This document shows, piece after piece, positions 3,720-21,729 of a stretch of 64,000 bases of DNA. The stretch comes from Bacteroidota bacterium. Lineage in GTDB: Bacteria > Bacteroidota > Bacteroidia > Sphingobacteriales > Sphingobacteriaceae. The position numbers and the translations under genes were made by a program. Location: NCBI GenBank assembly GCA_013288485.1, contig JABDBW010000002.1:1-64000 (forward strand), in the 5' to 3' direction. Numbering within the stretch: position 1 is the stretch's first letter; every line of letters starts with the position of its first letter. Below the pieces are notes generated by a model. It made no database searches, was not told where the DNA came from, and saw only the letters and a program-made list of their open reading frames with translations.

Positions 3720-4601
3720 TTATTTGCCATTCATCCATGATTTGAAGGCACTTGCGCGTTTTTGACTAATAACGACCTGGCTCTTAAAAGAAGGCTTGGT
3801 AAACAGTTCCAGTTTATGATGGTCCATGTTTTGAAAGTAGTCACATGCCTTAATGTTGACGATCATTTGTCGGTTTGCCCGAAAAAATTGTTTATCATTT
3901 AAATGTTGTTGTACCTCGTCCAAAGGCTGCGACACCAGAAAATCCTCGCGGTCGAATGTCCGTAAAAAATTATACTGGCCATCATGATAAAAATAGCTGA
4001 CGGTATCAATAGGCAGCGGGATATTTTTGGCGCCTTTTTGTACAGTGAATACCTGTACCTGTTTATGGCCGGACATGCCTGTTGCTTTGTTTTCGGCATG
4101 TCTCCACCGATTGTAAAAATAGAAGGCCAGGTAATAGACATTCAAAAGCAGGAGCATGATTACAATAACAGGAAAATCAAACTGCAAATATCCCGTATCA
4201 AGTATTTTGATCCTGAACAGCGCAAAATATAAGGTTGCTAACAGGAATGCGGCAACGGATGGCAAGATAAGCCCAAAGGCAAATTGCAAGCCAATACGCT
4301 TTGCCGTATTATCTATCCAGTCAAAATGCTTATCAAGTTTTACGGTCACCAGATATACAGTGTTGATAAGTGAAAATGCGATAAAGAAACTTAAAGTTAG
4401 CGAACGATAGTAATAATACATGAGCAACAGTTGGAAGAAACTTTGTTTTGCCCCGAACGCCACAATGATATGGGCGGCCAGTAGCGAAATGGCCAGCCGG
4501 AAGTAAAGATCATTATACATAAGTGGTCGATTCAATGCAGCCATAAAATAAGGTGATTTGATTTTTTTTAAAACAGCAAGCGGCTTTTTTTGTTTTATCA
4601 A
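3720..4601 (-). CDS. Membrane-anchored LytTR-domain transcriptional regulator
   Basis: Several N-terminal hydrophobic segments; C-terminal IDTVSYFYHDGQYNFLRTFDREDFLVSQPLDEVQQHL...FFRANRQMIVNI is LytTR-like. Confidence 0.8.
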   Translation of the reverse strand: MIKQKKPLAVLKKIKSPYFMAALNRPLMYNDLYFRLAISLLAAHIIVAFGAKQSFFQLLLMYYYYRSLTLSFFIAFSLINTVYLVTVKLDKHFDWIDNTAKRIGLQFAFGLILPSVAAFLLATLYFALFRIKILDTGYLQFDFPVIVIMLLLLNVYYLAFYFYNRWRHAENKATGMSGHKQVQVFTVQKGAKNIPLPIDTVSYFYHDGQYNFLRTFDREDFLVSQPLDEVQQHLNDKQFFRANRQMIVNIKACDYFQNMDHHKLELFTKPSFKSQVVISQKRASAFKSWMNGK

Positions 4602-4651: not shown

Positions 4652-5032
4652 ATGGAAGCACAACCTTTCACCTCCGCCGGTGTAGCCGCATTGATGGCAG
4701 AGTTATATGCTCTGACTGACGAACAGTTAGCTGAGCAGGTTAACGAAATTAACAGCGACTTTATCAGTTGGATGGAGACAAACTTTACGCTAAGTGCCGA
4801 CCAGCAAAGCTATTTGGAAAATATGGACATTCAATTCATCCAGGCGGCGGCAGCTAATGTCGGACTTGCAGTAAAAAACAGACTGACGGTTACAGTCACA
4901 TTTGACGGTAGCTCAGGTTCGGGAAGTCTAAAGCTGGTCCAACAAAAGCCTCGGCTTGATACAACCTATGATACAACTAATGGTTTCGCAGCAACAGGAG
5001 AGTTGGATTTTATAATCAGCTATCAGCCTTAA
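4652..5032 (+). CDS. Hypothetical 126-aa protein divergent from the LytTR regulator
   Basis: Uninterrupted ORF with a 50-bp divergent intergenic region; no family recognised. Confidence 0.6.
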   Translation: MEAQPFTSAGVAALMAELYALTDEQLAEQVNEINSDFISWMETNFTLSADQQSYLENMDIQFIQAAAANVGLAVKNRLTVTVTFDGSSGSGSLKLVQQKPRLDTTYDTTNGFAATGELDFIISYQP

Positions 5033-5133: not shown

Positions 5134-5928
5134 TCAGGCCGTTGCGCTGGGTACTGAAAGGTTGAGCATAAGACTGCAACCCGCTTTGGGTTGTGATGTT
5201 ATCATCAAAGAGCCGTTCAGCAGTTGCGACCGAAGATGCATATTATTAATGCCCATCGTTCCTTTCTCTTTCACGATAGCTTCATCAAAACCAATACCGT
5301 CATCGGTGACCTTCATCATAAAATTTGCATCACTATAGACCAATTCCAATTTAATGTTGCTGGCATCAGCATGTTGCAGGCTGTTATGAATAGCTTCCTG
5401 CGCAATGCGGTAAACAAACAATTGCGCTTCAGGGGACAGCAGATGATCATCACCATTGACATCTAAAATAAACTTAACTTTCCCTGACGCGTTGATCTGC
5501 TCCATATCGAATTCCAGCATACGATACAATCCCTGTTCCTTGATAAAATCGCTGTTCAGCGAATGGCTCATATATTTAGTATCCCTGATGATACGTTTCA
5601 TCAGCTCTGCCACATGCTGGATAACTTTTAATTGTTCATTCCCTGTACATAATTTCTCTATGGTATAGATATCCATGTTGATGAGGTAAGCAACCTGACC
5701 GATATTATCATGGATGTCAGATGAGATCTCATTAAGTACCAGCTCTCTTTCTTCAAAGCTTGCTCTCAACTTCTTATGTTCCAATTCAAGGATCAGGCGT
5801 TGCTTTTCGAGCGAATATTGGAGTTCCCTGTTCTTATACCTGATGACAAAGTACACCAGAAAATAAACCAAGATCACCAGCATTAAAGTACAGGCAAAAG
5901 CTATTTCCATTATCTCCCTTGCGATCAT
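5134..5928 (-). CDS. Sensor-less HisKA_3 histidine kinase (cassette A)
   Basis: One N-terminal TM; SSDIHDNIGQVAYLI phosphorylation motif; HATPase-like IAQEAIHNSLQHADASNI and TDDGIGF. Confidence 0.85.
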   Translation of the reverse strand: MIAREIMEIAFACTLMLVILVYFLVYFVIRYKNRELQYSLEKQRLILELEHKKLRASFEERELVLNEISSDIHDNIGQVAYLINMDIYTIEKLCTGNEQLKVIQHVAELMKRIIRDTKYMSHSLNSDFIKEQGLYRMLEFDMEQINASGKVKFILDVNGDDHLLSPEAQLFVYRIAQEAIHNSLQHADASNIKLELVYSDANFMMKVTDDGIGFDEAIVKEKGTMGINNMHLRSQLLNGSLMITSQPKAGCSLMLNLSVPSATA

Positions 5929-6575
5929 GATCTGCGAAGTTTAGGGTAATAATAAAAAACGAACGCAAAAGCCATATTTGTAACGATACTTACCACGTAT
6001 AATGCCATGATCACTTCCGGCGCCTCTTCTCTTAATCTCGAGGAATAAAATTTGACAAGGGAGAACAGCAAATAGGTCATACTCCAGCAAAATATAAGGA
6101 TCACGGGGAACCAGAAATGCACTTCTTTTTTTAACTCACGCCTGTCGCCCGGTTTCAAAAAAGTGGATAATGCCGTCAGGCTCATGGCTACAGTGACCAA
6201 CGCTTGATAAAACAGGAAATAGCTGATGATCGAATTGATGGATTGAAAGAACAGGATATTGATCGTCCATACGACCAAACTGAATATACCTATTAAGCGC
6301 CCAATATTCTTTTTGCGAAAACGATCGATGATAATGTTAAAATAAAAGCAGGTCAGGAAGACCTCCAACAAGTTGTTCAGATTATACACGACCATATTGT
6401 TACGGTATTTGACCGCCATCAGATATGCTAATGATTCACTTACCAAACATAGGACCGTTATGTAAAAAATGATCTTACTACCTTTGTCTAACAGACGAAA
6501 ACGGCTCGCACCGATAATTACAGGTAACGCTAAGGTCAAGATGAGGAAATCGCTCTTTAGGTAATAAGCGTCCAT
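5925..6575 (-). CDS. Multi-TM protein, putative sensor partner of kinase A
   Basis: Several hydrophobic segments; 4-nt overlap with the kinase start; paralogous to 19517-20188 (shared YFN...I(D/E)(R/F)FRKRNIG). Confidence 0.65.
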   Translation of the reverse strand: MDAYYLKSDFLILTLALPVIIGASRFRLLDKGSKIIFYITVLCLVSESLAYLMAVKYRNNMVVYNLNNLLEVFLTCFYFNIIIDRFRKKNIGRLIGIFSLVVWTINILFFQSINSIISYFLFYQALVTVAMSLTALSTFLKPGDRRELKKEVHFWFPVILIFCWSMTYLLFSLVKFYSSRLREEAPEVIMALYVVSIVTNMAFAFVFYYYPKLRRS

Positions 6576-6586
6576 AGAACGAAATC

Positions 6587-7081
6587 TCAGTTTACTAACA
6601 AAGGGCTGCCCGCTTTACCAGGCGGGCAGATTGGCGGGCATGGCTGCGTATAGTCAAGAACCGAATTGTTATTGTAAAATATATATTTTCCACTATCATT
6701 ATATCCGGCAACAATGATGGTCAGCGCTTTGCTCTGGTAGCCAGCATTAGTATTCGCCATTGGGGAGTTGGCATAGGAGAGTGTATGCGCGAACATTAGT
6801 TTGAGATGAGTGATCTGTTCCCCTGTCGGGTTGCTATCCAGGTATTGCCTGAGTTGTTTTACATCGATGATCAAAGATTGTAGGTCAGTATCGTTCATGG
6901 TATAATGGATACTGTTGAGATAACTCCCCAACATTTTGTTGGCGCTATCGATAACAATAAATTTCGAAAAGCTATCGGCTGCAAAGCCTTTAATAACGGG
7001 ACCTGTCTTCACCGTTTGAGTTTGGCAGGCTGAAAGCAAGCCTATAATAATTGCGCTAAAAGCTGTGTACTTGTTTTTCAT
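6587..7081 (-). CDS. Lipoprotein with Cys/Pro-rich C-terminal tail (cassette A)
   Basis: Lipobox LLSAC; DSANKMLGSYLNSI, THLKLMFAHTL, PCPPICPPGKAGSPLL shared with 20203-20715. Confidence 0.7.
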   Translation of the reverse strand: MKNKYTAFSAIIIGLLSACQTQTVKTGPVIKGFAADSFSKFIVIDSANKMLGSYLNSIHYTMNDTDLQSLIIDVKQLRQYLDSNPTGEQITHLKLMFAHTLSYANSPMANTNAGYQSKALTIIVAGYNDSGKYIFYNNNSVLDYTQPCPPICPPGKAGSPLLVN

Positions 7082-7087
7082 AAGTTT

Positions 7088-7765
7088 TTATAATTTGACC
7101 TTTAATTTATTTGATCCATTAGCAGATATTCCTGATTTTAAGGCAAATAGTATAAGCCCGGTACGGCTGTTCACACTGAGACGGTCAAATAGCCGTTCCC
7201 GGAACCCATGCAGCGTATTTATGGAAATGCCCATTTCCGCTGCCATCTGGTCATAACGTAAGCTTGTACAGCATAATTTCAGGAATTCCATTTCCCGGTC
7301 AGGTATCTGAACGTTTTTCAACGTATTGCCCTGAAATATTTTAAATAGCTGCTCATTTGCTACTTCCGAATAATAATAGCCGGTCTCATAAATGTTATGG
7401 ATGGCTTTTCTGAAATCATCAGGAGAACACTCCTTGATCATATAGCCACTCACACCCTTATTGATCATGCTTGCTACATTATACTCAGAGCTATAACCTG
7501 ACAGTATCAATATCCTGATTAGCGGATATTTCCTTTTTAATTCATCCGTAAGCGAGAACCCGTCCATGACAGGCATCTGAAGGTCGATGATAATGATGTC
7601 AGGCAGATCCGCTGCCTGTTCCAGTTTTTGCAGCATATCTGCTCCGTGCATCGCCTGAAAAACAACCGACATATGGGGGTCATCGGATAGGTGCTGGGCC
7701 AGCCCTTCGCGCAGGAGGATATGGTCATCAACAATGGCTATTTTTATTTGTTTATGATCGTCCAT
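7088..7765 (-). CDS. LuxR/NarL-type response regulator (cassette A)
   Basis: IAIVDDHILLREGL...PDIIIIDLQMPVMDG...MIKE, C-terminal HTH. Confidence 0.9.
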   Translation of the reverse strand: MDDHKQIKIAIVDDHILLREGLAQHLSDDPHMSVVFQAMHGADMLQKLEQAADLPDIIIIDLQMPVMDGFSLTDELKRKYPLIRILILSGYSSEYNVASMINKGVSGYMIKECSPDDFRKAIHNIYETGYYYSEVANEQLFKIFQGNTLKNVQIPDREMEFLKLCCTSLRYDQMAAEMGISINTLHGFRERLFDRLSVNSRTGLILFALKSGISANGSNKLKVKL

Positions 7766-8735: not shown

Positions 8736-9599
8736 TTAATCTTCACCACTATTAGAAGGATAACTTGATAAATCATATTCATTAATTTCAAGCTTAAAAT
8801 TACCTTCTACACGTTCCGCCATATAGATACGGATATGCGGATGTCGTGCTAACGCAATGCGTGTAAACTCATGAACAGTTTCGTAAGGTGTTTTACATCC
8901 AAATATGAGACCCGTAATAGTTTTTTCCGGCATACAGTGCTCATTGGGATTTGTTGGTGTTGATTCGCTTACCCAAGCATGTTTAACGATTCTTCTTTCT
9001 TTTTCATAAGACCAGCAATTGTATTTCATTAAGATACTGTCCATAATGCTGTCAACCTCTTTATATGCTGGTACATAGTTCACATCATAAATATCACCCA
9101 TTAGAGATAGTTTCTCCGCATCAAATTCAAAGCAAATTCCAGCGTGGTTGTTGGCATAGTGGCTCCACATGAGGATGCTATCTTTCTCGGTTGTAACACA
9201 CAAAATACCGGTGTCACCGAAAAGAACCTCTTTTAATAATGTTTCTGAACTTGAATACGAACGTCTTGGAAGAATATATTCATAGGCTTTATAAATGATA
9301 TAATTCGAATCATGGATCAAATCAGGATTTGATTCCCGGATATAGGTAAACAACGCGTCAAATTCTCCTTTCTTTTCCTGTGTTAGGTATGCTTTGACAA
9401 GGTTTTCTAACTCTTCTGTTTTGGACAGTTTTAACTGCTTATTGTAGTTGGTTGATAGCTGGCATTCAAAGGGGTCGTTAAATTTCGCAGGGGGGGCAAA
9501 AATATATTTGATTGGTTTCAACAATAGATTTCGTCCGAGAACTAACCGATGCATATTTATAAAGTTTCGGAACCATAATTTATGCTTTAATGAAAACAA
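8736..9599 (-). CDS. DUF2971-like protein
   Basis: FAPPAKFNDPFECQ, LMWSHYANNHAGICFEFD, CWSYEKERRIVK motifs typical of DUF2971. Confidence 0.75.
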   Translation of the reverse strand: MFSLKHKLWFRNFINMHRLVLGRNLLLKPIKYIFAPPAKFNDPFECQLSTNYNKQLKLSKTEELENLVKAYLTQEKKGEFDALFTYIRESNPDLIHDSNYIIYKAYEYILPRRSYSSSETLLKEVLFGDTGILCVTTEKDSILMWSHYANNHAGICFEFDAEKLSLMGDIYDVNYVPAYKEVDSIMDSILMKYNCWSYEKERRIVKHAWVSESTPTNPNEHCMPEKTITGLIFGCKTPYETVHEFTRIALARHPHIRIYMAERVEGNFKLEINEYDLSSYPSNSGED

Positions 9600-17352: not shown

Positions 17353-17649
17353 TCAATCCTCATAGAGAACAGCAGACGGTGTTTGACCGGGTATCACACC
17401 TTGATGGGGATCGCCATTTATTAGTTGGCCTTGTGTAAAGCCATTTTCACAAGGATTGGCGGAGCCTGGGCAGTTTGTACTCATTTCGTCTGAAACATCA
17501 TTGTATTCAACGTATGTCGTATTGTTAGGCTTAAACCAGTAATAGCTGTCACCAGCCTTAGTCTTGTGGTTCGCAGCTTTTGTAGCAACCGCGCCGCCTA
17601 TTCCCAATACAACGGCAGCGATCATTAATGTCAATCTTACCTTTTTCAT
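17353..17649 (-). CDS. DUF6520-like small secreted peptide
   Basis: MKKVRLTLMIAAVVLGIGGAVATKAAN leader; short mature region with NCPGSANPCENGF; next to a MauE-like gene. Confidence 0.65.
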   Translation of the reverse strand: MKKVRLTLMIAAVVLGIGGAVATKAANHKTKAGDSYYWFKPNNTTYVEYNDVSDEMSTNCPGSANPCENGFTQGQLINGDPHQGVIPGQTPSAVLYED

Positions 17650-17737
17650 ACGTAATGTGATTGTAATTTGAAATAAAGGTGCTTACTCTATTTTACAGGT
17701 TTTCAGCTACGCCTGACTTGTTGGCCAACAAATATTT

Positions 17738-18181
17738 TTATGCAAAAGTTATTTTTGAATGATCGGTAAAATTCTCATGCCTTCTTGAAAATCGTAACGC
17801 CAGTATATTCAGAAAGATAAAACAAAGGTTAAAAACAACATGGGTCTTCCAGCTTAGTTGTTGTAAGATACCACCACATGTGCAAGGAAGGTGTTTGCTA
17901 AACATTAAAATGTAAAGAAGGTAGGTCGTAAATACGAATAACAATGACAATGATAAATTTAACCCTAAACGAAAAGTTCTTTTTATCAACAATAGTAAAA
18001 CGATAAGTAACTCAGATAAAGGGATCAATATGGCAACAACAGAGGCCCACGGCCCTATCAATGGAGATTTACCCAACTGAAATTTAAAGAGGTTGTAGTT
18101 TGTCAATTTACTTACGGCTGCATAAATAAAAAGCAGTATGAGTAAACTTGCAATAATTTCGATGGTGATCTTCTTTGTCAT
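17738..18181 (-). CDS. MauE/DoxX-like redox-associated membrane protein
   Basis: Four hydrophobic segments; HLPCTCGGILQQLSWKTHVVFNLCFI motif. Confidence 0.8.
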   Translation of the reverse strand: MTKKITIEIIASLLILLFIYAAVSKLTNYNLFKFQLGKSPLIGPWASVVAILIPLSELLIVLLLLIKRTFRLGLNLSLSLLFVFTTYLLYILMFSKHLPCTCGGILQQLSWKTHVVFNLCFIFLNILALRFSRRHENFTDHSKITFA

Positions 18182-18297
18182 GGCTAAAGATTTAAGTTTG
18201 ACCTTATTTTAAAAAACCACGTCTGACAGCCTAATTATCGCTATAGTGATTATCCTCTCTTTTCCGTTGTAAAATTAGCACAGCATTTAACTGCTTG

Positions 18298-18381
18298 TTT
18301 GTTCAATCAGTTCCAATGTTTGTCTATTCAGTTCCAATGTTTGTTTATTCAGCTCCAATGTTTGTCTATTCAGCTCACGGT
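18298..18381. repeat. Four tandem 21-bp direct repeats
   Basis: tttgttcaatcagttccaatg / tttgtctattcagttccaatg / tttgtttattcagctccaatg / tttgtctattcagctcacggt. Confidence 0.9.
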
Positions 18382-18390
18382 CAAAAAAAG

Positions 18391-18741
18391 TCAATTCCTT
18401 AAATAATGGGATGGGACATTTCCAAAGTATTTTGTGAATTTATGCGTAAAGGCAGGTGTATCTGCATATCCAACGAAAAGCGCTATTTGTTGAACAGTTC
18501 CATGCCGGGCAATTAATAGTTCCATAGCTTTTTCCATACGCATATTTAGAATAAACGTATAGACACTCGTTTTAAAATAAGTGGTAAAATGTCTTTTCAG
18601 GGTCGAAATGCTAATGCCAAACGCTTTAGCAATTTTGATCTCATTTAGTTCCTGCCCAATATTAGTTTCGATAAATTTCTTTATCTGTATTAACCTATCG
18701 ACATCGGAGGCAAGCAATATTATCTTATCACTTCTTCCCAT
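18391..18741 (-). CDS. Stand-alone AraC-type DNA-binding domain protein
   Basis: AKAFGISISTLKRHFTTYFKTSVYTFILNMRMEKAMELL...VQQIALFVGYADTPAFTHKFTKYFGNVPSHYL. Confidence 0.85.
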   Translation of the reverse strand: MGRSDKIILLASDVDRLIQIKKFIETNIGQELNEIKIAKAFGISISTLKRHFTTYFKTSVYTFILNMRMEKAMELLIARHGTVQQIALFVGYADTPAFTHKFTKYFGNVPSHYLRN

Positions 18742-18771: not shown

Positions 18772-19539
18772 TTAGCCTTTGCAACATAATGAAACCGTAC
18801 AACCAGCCCCAGGCTTGGAATCAATATGCAACTCTGCATCCAGCAACTTTGCCCGTTGGTACATAAATGCGATACCTTTTGATTCCATCGCATGTAATTT
18901 TTCCCGTGCGAAACCCAGTCCGTCATCAGTGATATTTAATAAAAAACAATGCTCCTGAAAATCCAAGATCAACTCAATGGTCGTAGCGCCCGCATGTTTT
19001 ACTACGTTCTGAATAGCTTCTTTGGCAATACGGAAGATCATCATTTTTAAGTCCACATTTAAAGTCCGGGCGGCTCCCTTGACGTTGAGTTTGTAGTCAA
19101 TGTTTTTTGTCTTCATCGTCCTTATTAGTTCGTCTTCAAGAATGGTCTTTAATCCGTTGGACTTTATATAATCGCTATTCAAGGAAAAACAAATTTTTTT
19201 TGCATCCTCTACCATTTGTTCTGTAATATCTGACACATATTTTATGGTTTCCAATTGCTTGCTGTCATATGACATATCCCTGAGTGTACACAAACTCATT
19301 TTTAGCAGGCAGGACATCTGAAGAATATTATCATGCACCTCCCGTGCTACTTCATTTTGTATCCTTTCAGCTTCTTCGATCCTGCCGTTTTGATACTCAA
19401 ATTGCATATGTTGTTTTTCAGAAAAAAAAGCGTTTTTCTTATTACGCATGTACATAATAAATAAAACGAGGAAAAGGCCGAATACTACCAACAGGATGGT
19501 GCAGGCCATAAGTATTTTAATGATGTATTGGTCTTGCAT
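18772..19539 (-). CDS. Sensor-less HisKA_3 histidine kinase (cassette B)
   Basis: One TM; AREVHDNILQMSCLL; IAKEAIQNVVKHAGATTIEL; TDDGLGF. Confidence 0.85.
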   Translation of the reverse strand: MQDQYIIKILMACTILLVVFGLFLVLFIMYMRNKKNAFFSEKQHMQFEYQNGRIEEAERIQNEVAREVHDNILQMSCLLKMSLCTLRDMSYDSKQLETIKYVSDITEQMVEDAKKICFSLNSDYIKSNGLKTILEDELIRTMKTKNIDYKLNVKGAARTLNVDLKMMIFRIAKEAIQNVVKHAGATTIELILDFQEHCFLLNITDDGLGFAREKLHAMESKGIAFMYQRAKLLDAELHIDSKPGAGCTVSLCCKG

Positions 19540-20188
19540 GGTTTAGAGACTTTTGGGGATAGCGCAAAAAAGTGAAAATGACAGTAATATAAAAGGGGTA
19601 ATTAATAAAGCCAATAGCATAGCTGATCCAATATTTATAAGCAGGTGCAGCAATTGTAAAAAAATCATAGAAAGCCCAGTCGATAATCGAAAGACACCAG
19701 TAAATGATCAGGATAAAAGCAAACCAGAAATGTGGATTAGTGGTTATGACCAGGTAAGAATAAGATTTGACCAATTGAAAAAGCGACAACAATGCCATCA
19801 TAATGATCACGATCCCTTCATAGTACATAAAGAAGCCGCTGAGGTGGTACATAGACCCGCAGGCTATCATATTATATAAACCGATCAGCGAACTGATGAT
19901 GGCAATGTGGATTCCAATATTCCTTTTTCGGAAAAATTCGATACAATAATTAAAGTATAAGGAAAGTGTTGCAATTTCGACCAAATTGAAGACCCTTAAA
20001 ACAGGAATGTTTTGATGAAATTTAACGGCGCAGTAATAAGCAATACATTCTTCCAATAAAGTTAAACCAATATAGGTACAGAAGATCTTAGAAGCGATAT
20101 CAAGGAAACGGCGCCGCAACATCCCGGACAAAAAAGCAATGAGCAGTAGGGAGATATTGATGAATGCAACGAGATGGTAATGTGTCAT
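19517..20188 (-). CDS. Multi-TM protein, putative sensor partner (cassette B)
   Basis: Paralog of 5925-6575; same length class, hydrophobic pattern and gene position. Confidence 0.65.
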   Translation of the reverse strand: MTHYHLVAFINISLLLIAFLSGMLRRRFLDIASKIFCTYIGLTLLEECIAYYCAVKFHQNIPVLRVFNLVEIATLSLYFNYCIEFFRKRNIGIHIAIISSLIGLYNMIACGSMYHLSGFFMYYEGIVIIMMALLSLFQLVKSYSYLVITTNPHFWFAFILIIYWCLSIIDWAFYDFFTIAAPAYKYWISYAIGFINYPFYITVIFTFLRYPQKSLNHARPIHH

Positions 20189-20202: not shown

Positions 20203-20715
20203 TTAATGAGTTAGCAGGTTATTTCCAGCTTGCCCTGGCGGACAACTATTAGGACAAGGCTCACAATATTCCAATACCTGATTCATAGAATAATAGACAT
20301 AGTTTCCACTGGTATCATACCCTGCAACAACAAGTGTTAATGCACCACTTTTGTACCCTGCAAACTGATTGGCATGTCCGGCATTTATATATTCCAGTGT
20401 ATGTGCGAAAAATAGCTTTAGATGAGTTATCCTGTTTTGATTTCCGAAGCTATCTGTATAAAGTCGCAATTGGTCCATATCGATCATTAACGCCCGTAAG
20501 TCGGTATCATTGGTCGCAAAATTAATGCTGTTCAGGTAGCTACCGATCATTTTGTTGGCCGAATCCATCGGGATAAACCTGGAGAATGAGGTGTCGCCTC
20601 TTGCATTCAGATCTTTAGGTCTTCTGCTTTGGGTGGTGCCATCTGACGGATGGGGTTGGTCACAACCGATAATTAAAGTGGTAATAATCGCTAATAATAA
20701 GATGTTTCGGATCAT
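20203..20715 (-). CDS. Lipoprotein with Cys/Pro-rich C-terminal tail (cassette B)
   Basis: Lipobox LIIGC; DSANKMIGSYLNSI, THLKLFFAHTL, CEPCPNSCPPGQAGNNLL. Confidence 0.7.
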   Translation of the reverse strand: MIRNILLLAIITTLIIGCDQPHPSDGTTQSRRPKDLNARGDTSFSRFIPMDSANKMIGSYLNSINFATNDTDLRALMIDMDQLRLYTDSFGNQNRITHLKLFFAHTLEYINAGHANQFAGYKSGALTLVVAGYDTSGNYVYYSMNQVLEYCEPCPNSCPPGQAGNNLLTH

Positions 20716-21392
20716 TTTTTTTCATTTATTTGGTTAACAAATTCCATTGTTACAATACCCGATTGAATAGCAAAAATGACAAGGCCGACGCGGCTCCTCA
20801 CCTTTAGTTTGGCAAATAAGCGATCCCTGTATCCGTCAATACTGCGAAGCGTAGTGTTGAGTTTATCGGCTATCTCGCTGTAACTCATATCGGTACAGCA
20901 ATATTTAAGAAATTCTTTTTCGGTGTCTGTAAGTACAAGTGGTTTTAGTGTTTTATTTTGAACAGAAGCAAATTTGGTATTATCCGCCACTTGTGAATAA
21001 TAGTAGCCTGAATGATAAATATATTCCAGCGCTTTTTTTATTTCTGTAGGCTCACTTGTTTTAAGTAAGTACCCATTAGCACCATTCTGTATCATTTTAA
21101 TAATATACGTGTCATTATTAAATGACGTAAGTATCAATGTACGTATTTCCGGCCAGCATTTTTTTAATTCAACCTGCAAAATGAATCCATTCATTCGCGG
21201 CATATTGATATCAATGATCACAATATCAGGCAGTTGTTTGGCGGCTTGTAGTTGTTGCATTAATTCAACTCCATCATCGGCCTGTATGTCAAAGATGACA
21301 CCGCCCAGGCTTTCAAGGGCGGAAATAATTCCTTTACGGACGGCAACCTGATCCTCGGCATATGCAACACGGATTAGGGGACTGTTATTCAT
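20712..21392 (-). CDS. LuxR/NarL-type response regulator (cassette B)
   Basis: IRVAYAEDQVAVRKGI...PDIVIIDINMPRMNG...LLKT, C-terminal HTH; likely start MNNSPLIRV inside ORF 20712-21440. Confidence 0.88.
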   Translation of the reverse strand: MNNSPLIRVAYAEDQVAVRKGIISALESLGGVIFDIQADDGVELMQQLQAAKQLPDIVIIDINMPRMNGFILQVELKKCWPEIRTLILTSFNNDTYIIKMIQNGANGYLLKTSEPTEIKKALEYIYHSGYYYSQVADNTKFASVQNKTLKPLVLTDTEKEFLKYCCTDMSYSEIADKLNTTLRSIDGYRDRLFAKLKVRSRVGLVIFAIQSGIVTMEFVNQINEKK

Positions 21393-21427
21393 GAACTCAA
21401 AAATAAGTCGCTTATTTTTATAAAAAC

Positions 21428-21475
21428 AGAGGCAAAACACACGGAAAAAAATAAAAAACCGTGTGTTTTGCCTCT
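21428..21475. promoter_or_regulatory. Perfect 17-bp inverted repeat upstream of cassette B
   Basis: agaggcaaaacacacgg (21428-21444)/ccgtgtgttttgcctct (21459-21475), A-rich 14-nt loop. Confidence 0.85.
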
Positions 21476-21729
21476 AAAAACTATCGAAAAAATGGGCTAA
21501 CTTGTATGCCCATTTCCGCAAAAAATGATATTCTTCATCAAAATGTACTGATGTACGCTAAGAAATGAGGTGAATTATTCTACTTCAGGGTAGAAAAAAA
21601 GTACTTCAACGGCGTTTTTTAATATTTGATCCACCTTGACACCTCCAGGATTTGATACGTCCAGTTTGGTGTATCTAACTTTGACTCAGGCTGTGGGCCT
21701 GATTAAGTCGCTTTATAATCATTTTTGTC

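Follow-up and report, generated by a model that had tools for sequence, protein, structure and literature searches.

The four-gene cassette and its paralogues

The window is a stretch of 64,000 nucleotides from a Bacteroidota bacterium of the Sphingobacteriaceae (assembly GCA_013288485.1, contig JABDBW010000002.1, positions 1 to 64,000). Cassette A occupies positions 7765-5134 of its minus strand, where four tightly packed genes are transcribed in the order response regulator, lipoprotein, transmembrane (TM) protein and kinase. The first gene (7088-7765, −) encodes a response regulator of the NarL/FixJ (LuxR) type of 225 aa, recognised by Pfam and its characteristic residues. It is followed, after 6 nt, by the gene for a small protein of 164 aa in lipoprotein form (6587-7081, −), modelled here with AlphaFold2, and, after a further 11 nt, by that for a 216-aa seven-helix membrane protein (5925-6575, −), its helices and N-out/C-in orientation being predicted by AlphaFold2 and loop charges. 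The last gene (5134-5928, −) encodes a histidine kinase of 264 aa with one TM segment, a HisKA_3 domain (His73) and HATPase_c, as judged by Pfam, hydropathy and motifs; its start overlaps the stop of the TM gene by 4 nt, in the sequence ATGA (5925-5928, −). The earlier note on this DNA had described four such open reading frames, and their positions, their order and the 4-nt overlap were borne out. It had also quoted a motif at the extreme C-terminus of the lipoprotein; this motif is present, but the true end, PCPPICPPGKAGSPLLVN, runs two residues past the quotation.

Downstream of cassette A lie a multi-TM LytTR regulator and a divergent 126-aa ORF without a database match (window 3720-4601 and 4652-5032), and on its other side a DUF2971-family protein is encoded between a sigma factor and a FecR-like gene (window 8736-9599).

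A paralogous cassette B, which repeats both the gene content and the gene order of A, is found at 21440-18772 (−). Its response regulator (20712-21440, −; Response_reg 5.9e-21, GerE 2.1e-10) probably starts about 45 nt inside the ORF. Its small protein, also a lipoprotein (20203-20715, −; tail EPCPNSCPPGQAGNNLLTH), had no match in a Pfam search and was recognised by its similarity to that of cassette A, with 59% identity over residues 34-163 (E 4.4e-49). The seven-helix protein (19517-20188, −) is 29% identical to its counterpart (E 3.4e-20), and the kinase, of 255 aa with one TM segment (18772-19539, −; HATPase_c 4.7e-08, HisKA_3 sub-threshold), is 33% identical, so the likeness between the two cassettes is greatest in the small protein (52-59%). 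Beside cassette B (window 17353-18741) are an AraC-type regulator, a MauE protein and a small DUF6520 protein, and the same neighbours follow the cassette in another locus (L015, 2811-4188). A third homologue of the TM protein is encoded elsewhere in the same genome (G000:C17:28334-28954; locus L076), together with a membrane-anchored small protein of its own (tail ELCPDNCDGALFVCPDPTDPACGN), a kinase and a regulator.

A two-component pair whose kinase has no sensor domain

The response regulator of cassette A gave Pfam matches above cutoff to Response_reg (3.6e-23) and GerE/LuxR (1.3e-06), and it has the VDDH motif, the phospho-acceptor Asp61 and the lysine of MIKE. In the kinase, HATPase_c was found at 6.3e-09 and HisKA_3 below threshold, at 19.8 bits against a cutoff of 24; a single hydrophobic segment near residues 1-33 is followed by DIHDN, which contains His73, and by the N-box and G-boxes, and His73-Asp74 is invariant in the kinase alignment. 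The pair thus has the receiver and LuxR-type domain of the regulator, and the His domain and HATPase of the kinase, that mark the NarL/HisKA_3 two-component class. A sensor domain of its own is not a defining feature of this class, and none was detected by Pfam or hydropathy in the kinase of either A or B, where one TM segment leads into HisKA_3. The description of the cassette A kinase as a one-TM protein without a sensor domain therefore stands, since Pfam and hydropathy show no other domain in it.

The seven-helix protein

AlphaFold2, run with 59 homologues, gave a confident model of the TM protein as seven helices (pLDDT 94, pTM 0.89). The protein is predicted to lie N-out/C-in, because lysine and arginine are concentrated in alternate loops and at the C-terminus. 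An inverted topology in those cassettes where the small protein has no signal was considered and discarded, the charge pattern being alike in both classes. The best-conserved polar positions, N59, N60, H/N65 and F/Y116-x-S/T118, are at the periplasmic helix ends in the model; no conserved protease-like residues were found.

The family to which this protein belongs has no name. Pfam searches with 13 members at E 0.1 matched no family, including 5TMR-LYT and 7TMR-DISM, nor was there a match in NCBIfam, and the best hit of a PDB sequence search was HcKCR2, at E 0.1. In Foldseek, GPCRs and rhodopsins rank at the top, with E of 0.027 or worse and TM-scores of about 0.4-0.6, a resemblance that is probably one of seven-helix shape and not of homology. 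A retinal-binding lysine was looked for in the seventh helix of the window's protein (182-208) and is absent.

The small protein and its tail

The small protein of cassette A has a lipobox-like LLSAC and matches no Pfam or NCBIfam family. Its relatives, of 100-310 aa, are very divergent apart from a conserved C-terminal tail: an alignment of 58 homologues has no invariant columns other than the Cys, Pro and Cys of CPxxC (Cys148, Pro149 and Cys152). Of 172 small-protein tails, 138 contain CPx(2-4)C at the C-terminus; in the background, which consists of other ORFs of 100 aa or longer from the same stretches of DNA, 9 of 1063 have it. The Cys tail to which the earlier note drew attention is therefore common in the family, but it is not universal: in 26 of the 172, PP is kept and the Cys pair is lacking (e.g., RPVPPYGD and GMGRPPKDLH), and 8 show neither feature. 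In Flavobacteriaceae-like loci, Pro-Pro is often kept and the cysteines are lost. Three loci (L091, L174 and L175) encode a tandem double copy of the small-protein domain.

An AlphaFold2 model of the window's small protein consists of a helix-helix-strand-strand core with a disordered tail. A fold search of the PDB with this model found nothing, and is uninformative given the weakness of the model (pLDDT 70). For neither the small protein nor the TM protein, then, did Pfam, NCBIfam, PDB sequence and PDB fold searches give a significant match to a known family.

The location of the small protein also varies, at least as predicted by a simple rule, which sorted the 172 proteins into 17 lipoproteins, 28 with another N-terminal hydrophobic segment and 127 with neither. 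The term lipoprotein thus suits cassette A, as the earlier note had it, but not the family as a whole, where the 127 have no export signal by this rule. Together with the tails that have lost their cysteines, this lack of an export signal in most homologues weakens a simple story in which a lipoprotein acts as the sensor.

These features bear on two other explanations for the small protein. One is that the TM protein is informed of the redox state of the envelope by the CPxxC tail, through a disulfide or a bound metal. The enrichment of CPx(2-4)C over the background ORFs speaks for a thiol-redox or metal sensor of this kind; the 26 tails that have PP without the Cys pair speak against it, as does the cytosolic appearance of most small proteins, since disulfides are less likely there, and we consider it very improbable. 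A redox or metal tail common to the whole family is weakened by the Cys-less tails. The other explanation is cell-cell signalling, in which the small protein would give rise to a secreted signal, a protein or a peptide corresponding to the Pro/Cys tail, and the seven-helix protein would sense or process this signal. A dedicated small gene upstream of a receptor, a tail that is both disordered and conserved, and a difference in tail type between lineages would all be consistent with this, and a leaderless cytosolic precursor would suit the 127 signal-less proteins. However, the cassettes contain neither an exporter nor a modification enzyme, the globular part of the small protein is conserved throughout the family, the TM protein has no conserved residues of the protease type with which to process a precursor, and the lipoprotein and membrane-anchored forms are not free precursors; such signalling is accordingly judged distinctly unlikely.

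Distribution and linkage

Both unnamed families are widespread, often with several copies per Bacteroidota genome. A profile search detected the TM family in 249 of 397 near-complete genomes from the GTDB family to which the window belongs; in a phylum-wide sample of 296 genomes it was present in 65, some of them from lineages that do not belong to the window's class. Neighbourhoods were read for 60 family loci, which are those of the better-scoring TM matches, and for 60 phylum loci, which span the score range; the linkage counts take in all loci fetched up to L175 and are lower bounds where loci end early. On this basis, 172 of 187 TM genes have a small ORF directly upstream, 167 have a same-strand kinase within 1.5 kb, and 157 have a regulator within 2.5 kb. 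The earlier note had reasoned that its proposal would fall if the homologues occurred mostly without HisKA_3 kinases, and the kinase close to 167 of the 187 TM genes is of this very type; the proposal thus withstood its own test.

The reverse test started from the small protein, whose profile was run on 151 genomes. In a sample of 40 small-protein matches for which the TM gene was absent among the TM matches listed, the TM gene was nevertheless directly downstream of the small protein in all 40, and a kinase was near most of them. Thus, the profile searches and the neighbourhood survey that the earlier note had called for show that the two families are linked in both directions. In five of these 40 loci (L147, L151, L159, L164 and L167), the small protein and TM protein occur without a nearby kinase. 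Because the pair occurs without the kinase there, the obligate pairing of the small protein with the TM protein is the tightest in the cassette and forms its more constant core.

The remaining parts are more variable. The commonest gene order across loci is small protein, TM protein, kinase and regulator, and the regulator comes first in A, B and several relatives. In five loci (L067, L073, L136, L141 and L142), a single hybrid kinase of about 550 aa replaces both the HisKA_3 kinase and the LuxR regulator; the one in L142 comprises HisKA, HATPase and two receivers. Across 125 full cassettes, pairwise distances correlate between the four proteins, with rho of 0.25-0.67, above all 50 permutations, in a calculation made without correction for phylogeny or shared ancestry.

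The genes that flank the cassettes vary by lineage (a LUD-domain gene, an eCIS cluster or the AraC/MauE/DUF6520 group), which rules out a fixed target gene beside the cassette. Chance adjacency of the cassette genes themselves is ruled out by the two-way linkage. The same evidence decides against a view of the cassette as an ordinary two-component pair accompanied by unrelated passenger genes: it is genomic linkage and not biochemistry that ties the parts together, which speaks for such a view, but this linkage holds in both directions and is conserved across the phylum, and passengers are given practically no credence here.

Palindromes, candidate operators and injection clusters

Inverted repeats are over-represented upstream of the cassettes. 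The palindrome TRCGTA-N4-TACGYA, matched at 11/12 or better, precedes 37 of the 172 cassettes, at a distance of 70-200 nt from the first gene; its density upstream of cassettes is 0.64/kb versus 0.049/kb across whole loci, and shuffles lead one to expect 0.45 hits. In 12 relatives that have the palindrome at a cassette, each genome contains 0-6 exact matches, and in 16 other relatives 0-3, so that a site taken singly cannot be relied on. Cassettes A and B are themselves without a site at 11/12 or better, and the idea of an operator common to A and B was dropped, no palindrome having been found upstream of either. Upstream of the cassette B regulator, there is instead a direct repeat, TGAAGTA-N14-TGAAGTA, at 21608 (−), which is the sole such pair in the window. 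Similar repeats precede the regulators of two other loci (L069 and L154), and this direct repeat is a possible operator of the lipoprotein subfamily.

The palindrome is also found away from the cassettes. In three species (L215:2491, L216:2795 and L224), a perfect copy is situated 171-172 nt upstream of the Pvc16 gene, which opens a contractile injection (eCIS) cluster with sheath, tube, VgrG-like, PAAR and gp25 genes; this copy is inside the best-conserved block of the region, where shuffles never exceeded 10/12. In a fourth species (L030), a cassette and an eCIS cluster are divergent neighbours, and the palindrome (at 2411) is near their shared start region. However, most of the 30 Pvc16 loci have no palindrome, those that do are close eCIS relatives only, and the window's genome has no Pvc16 match. 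A general link between cassettes and eCIS is thereby ruled out, and the link would be lineage-specific at best and not a property of cassettes A and B.

Other palindrome sites are also conserved between species: five species have one in front of a gene for a small lipoprotein, two have one in front of a DUF3892 gene, and two have one in front of a gene for a peptidoglycan-binding/CHAP protein (L195, L197, L198, L200, L201, L202, L203, L205 and L207). Two species (L218:9116 and L222:8588) have the palindrome where the genes for ClpC and an aldo/keto reductase converge, away from any gene start.

Comparison with known systems

The closest parallel in gene content is the SaePQRS system of Staphylococcus aureus, in which a lipoprotein, a multi-TM protein, a membrane kinase without a sensor domain and a response regulator are likewise encoded in one operon with feedback on its promoter. 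SaeS has two TM segments, and SaeR is of the OmpR type. SaeQ has four predicted helices, whereas seven are modelled in the TM protein of the cassette, and Pfam, NCBIfam and PDB searches revealed no sequence match between SaePQRS and the cassette proteins. Activation does not depend on SaePQ, but the induction of SaeS phosphatase activity does, by way of a SaePQS complex, and the SaeP promoter is subject to autoinduction (PMC5083920). By analogy, the kinase of the cassette might do its own sensing in the membrane, with the small and TM proteins as induced feedback partners that raise its phosphatase activity. The same four parts argue for this, and the palindromes upstream of the small-protein gene suggest feedback; on the other hand, the TM protein is receptor-shaped, with seven helices and with conserved residues at its periplasmic face, and it persists with the small protein in five loci that have no kinase nearby. 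An arrangement like that of SaePQRS is hence considered unlikely.

The Rcs phosphorelay, with its components RcsF, IgaA, RcsC/D and RcsB (PMC5978795, PMC7418988, PMC11709261), offers another parallel, in that an outer-membrane lipoprotein acts on an inner-membrane multi-TM protein and this on a kinase relay and a LuxR-type regulator. However, IgaA is large and inhibitory, with periplasmic and cytoplasmic domains, unlike the 216-aa seven-helix protein, and the Rcs relay includes a phosphotransfer protein where the cassette has a simple kinase-regulator pair. As to homology with RcsF, IgaA and RcsD, neither the small protein nor the TM protein had a Pfam or NCBIfam match. Seven-helix N-out receptors that control a histidine kinase are known from BtsS and other LytS-type seven-TM kinases (PMC10653868) and from 7TMR-DISM proteins. 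In these, the receptor is fused to the kinase, but in the cassette it is separate and has a separate small partner. In the case of sensory rhodopsin II and HtrII, a separate seven-helix receptor signals sideways through the TM helix of its partner. Signalling of this sideways kind is proposed for the cassette, except that its TM protein has no retinal and its partner is a kinase and not a chemotaxis transducer. The cassette shares the logic of SaePQRS, of the Rcs chain and of BtsS but differs from each in the features that would make it a member.

In the open-access literature, no description was found of an arrangement in which a one-TM kinase is accompanied by a free-standing seven-helix protein and a dedicated protein with a Pro/Cys tail. 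Two-component systems with accessory proteins are already known, and what is new here is the presence of two unnamed families in such an arrangement.

A model for the cassette

The reading preferred here, to which we assign a probability of roughly 0.6, is that the cassette is a conserved four-part Bacteroidota signalling unit in which a seven-helix receptor and its small partner control a sensor-less kinase. On this reading, the role of receptor would fall to the seven-helix protein. The product of the small gene immediately before it would be its dedicated partner, whether as ligand, co-receptor or regulator, and probably docks or reports via a flexible [C]PP[x]C tail. Next to the receptor in the membrane, the one-TM kinase would be switched through its single TM helix and would phosphorylate the LuxR-type regulator. 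In many relatives, this regulator appears to bind the palindrome upstream of its own cassette and of a few other genes. The analysis establishes which genes make up the cassette and in what order, the obligate pairing of the small and TM proteins, their wide conservation, the lack of a sensor domain in the kinase, a confident seven-helix model with its topology, and the enrichment of the palindrome; that the proteins touch, which way the signal runs, what the tail does and that the cassette regulates itself are what we infer. The split sensing suggested by the earlier note has good support from the linkage and fits the sensor-less kinase, and sensing would probably be shared by the TM and small proteins. 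Three findings fit this model less easily. Most small proteins (127 of 172) lack an export signal whereas the conserved face of the TM protein is periplasmic, which argues against a single location for the partner; the HisKA hybrid in some loci (e.g., L142) and the five loci with no kinase nearby argue against a fixed kinase type; and cassettes A and B are without the palindrome at 11/12 or better.

A bolder possibility, which must be regarded as rather doubtful, is that these cassettes represent a large and unrecognised class of stand-alone bacterial seven-helix receptors, with dedicated protein ligands encoded next to them, that signal sideways to one-TM kinases across the Bacteroidota and govern eCIS deployment in some lineages. 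The occurrence of the palindrome at both cassettes and eCIS clusters makes the question of eCIS regulation directly testable. If the seven-helix protein is indeed a receptor, the Bacteroidota would possess a widespread class of receptors separable from their kinases, so that receptor, partner and kinase could each be exchanged in turn, and the cassette would provide a candidate answer to the question of which inputs act on the phylum's common HisKA_3 kinases with one TM segment and no sensor.
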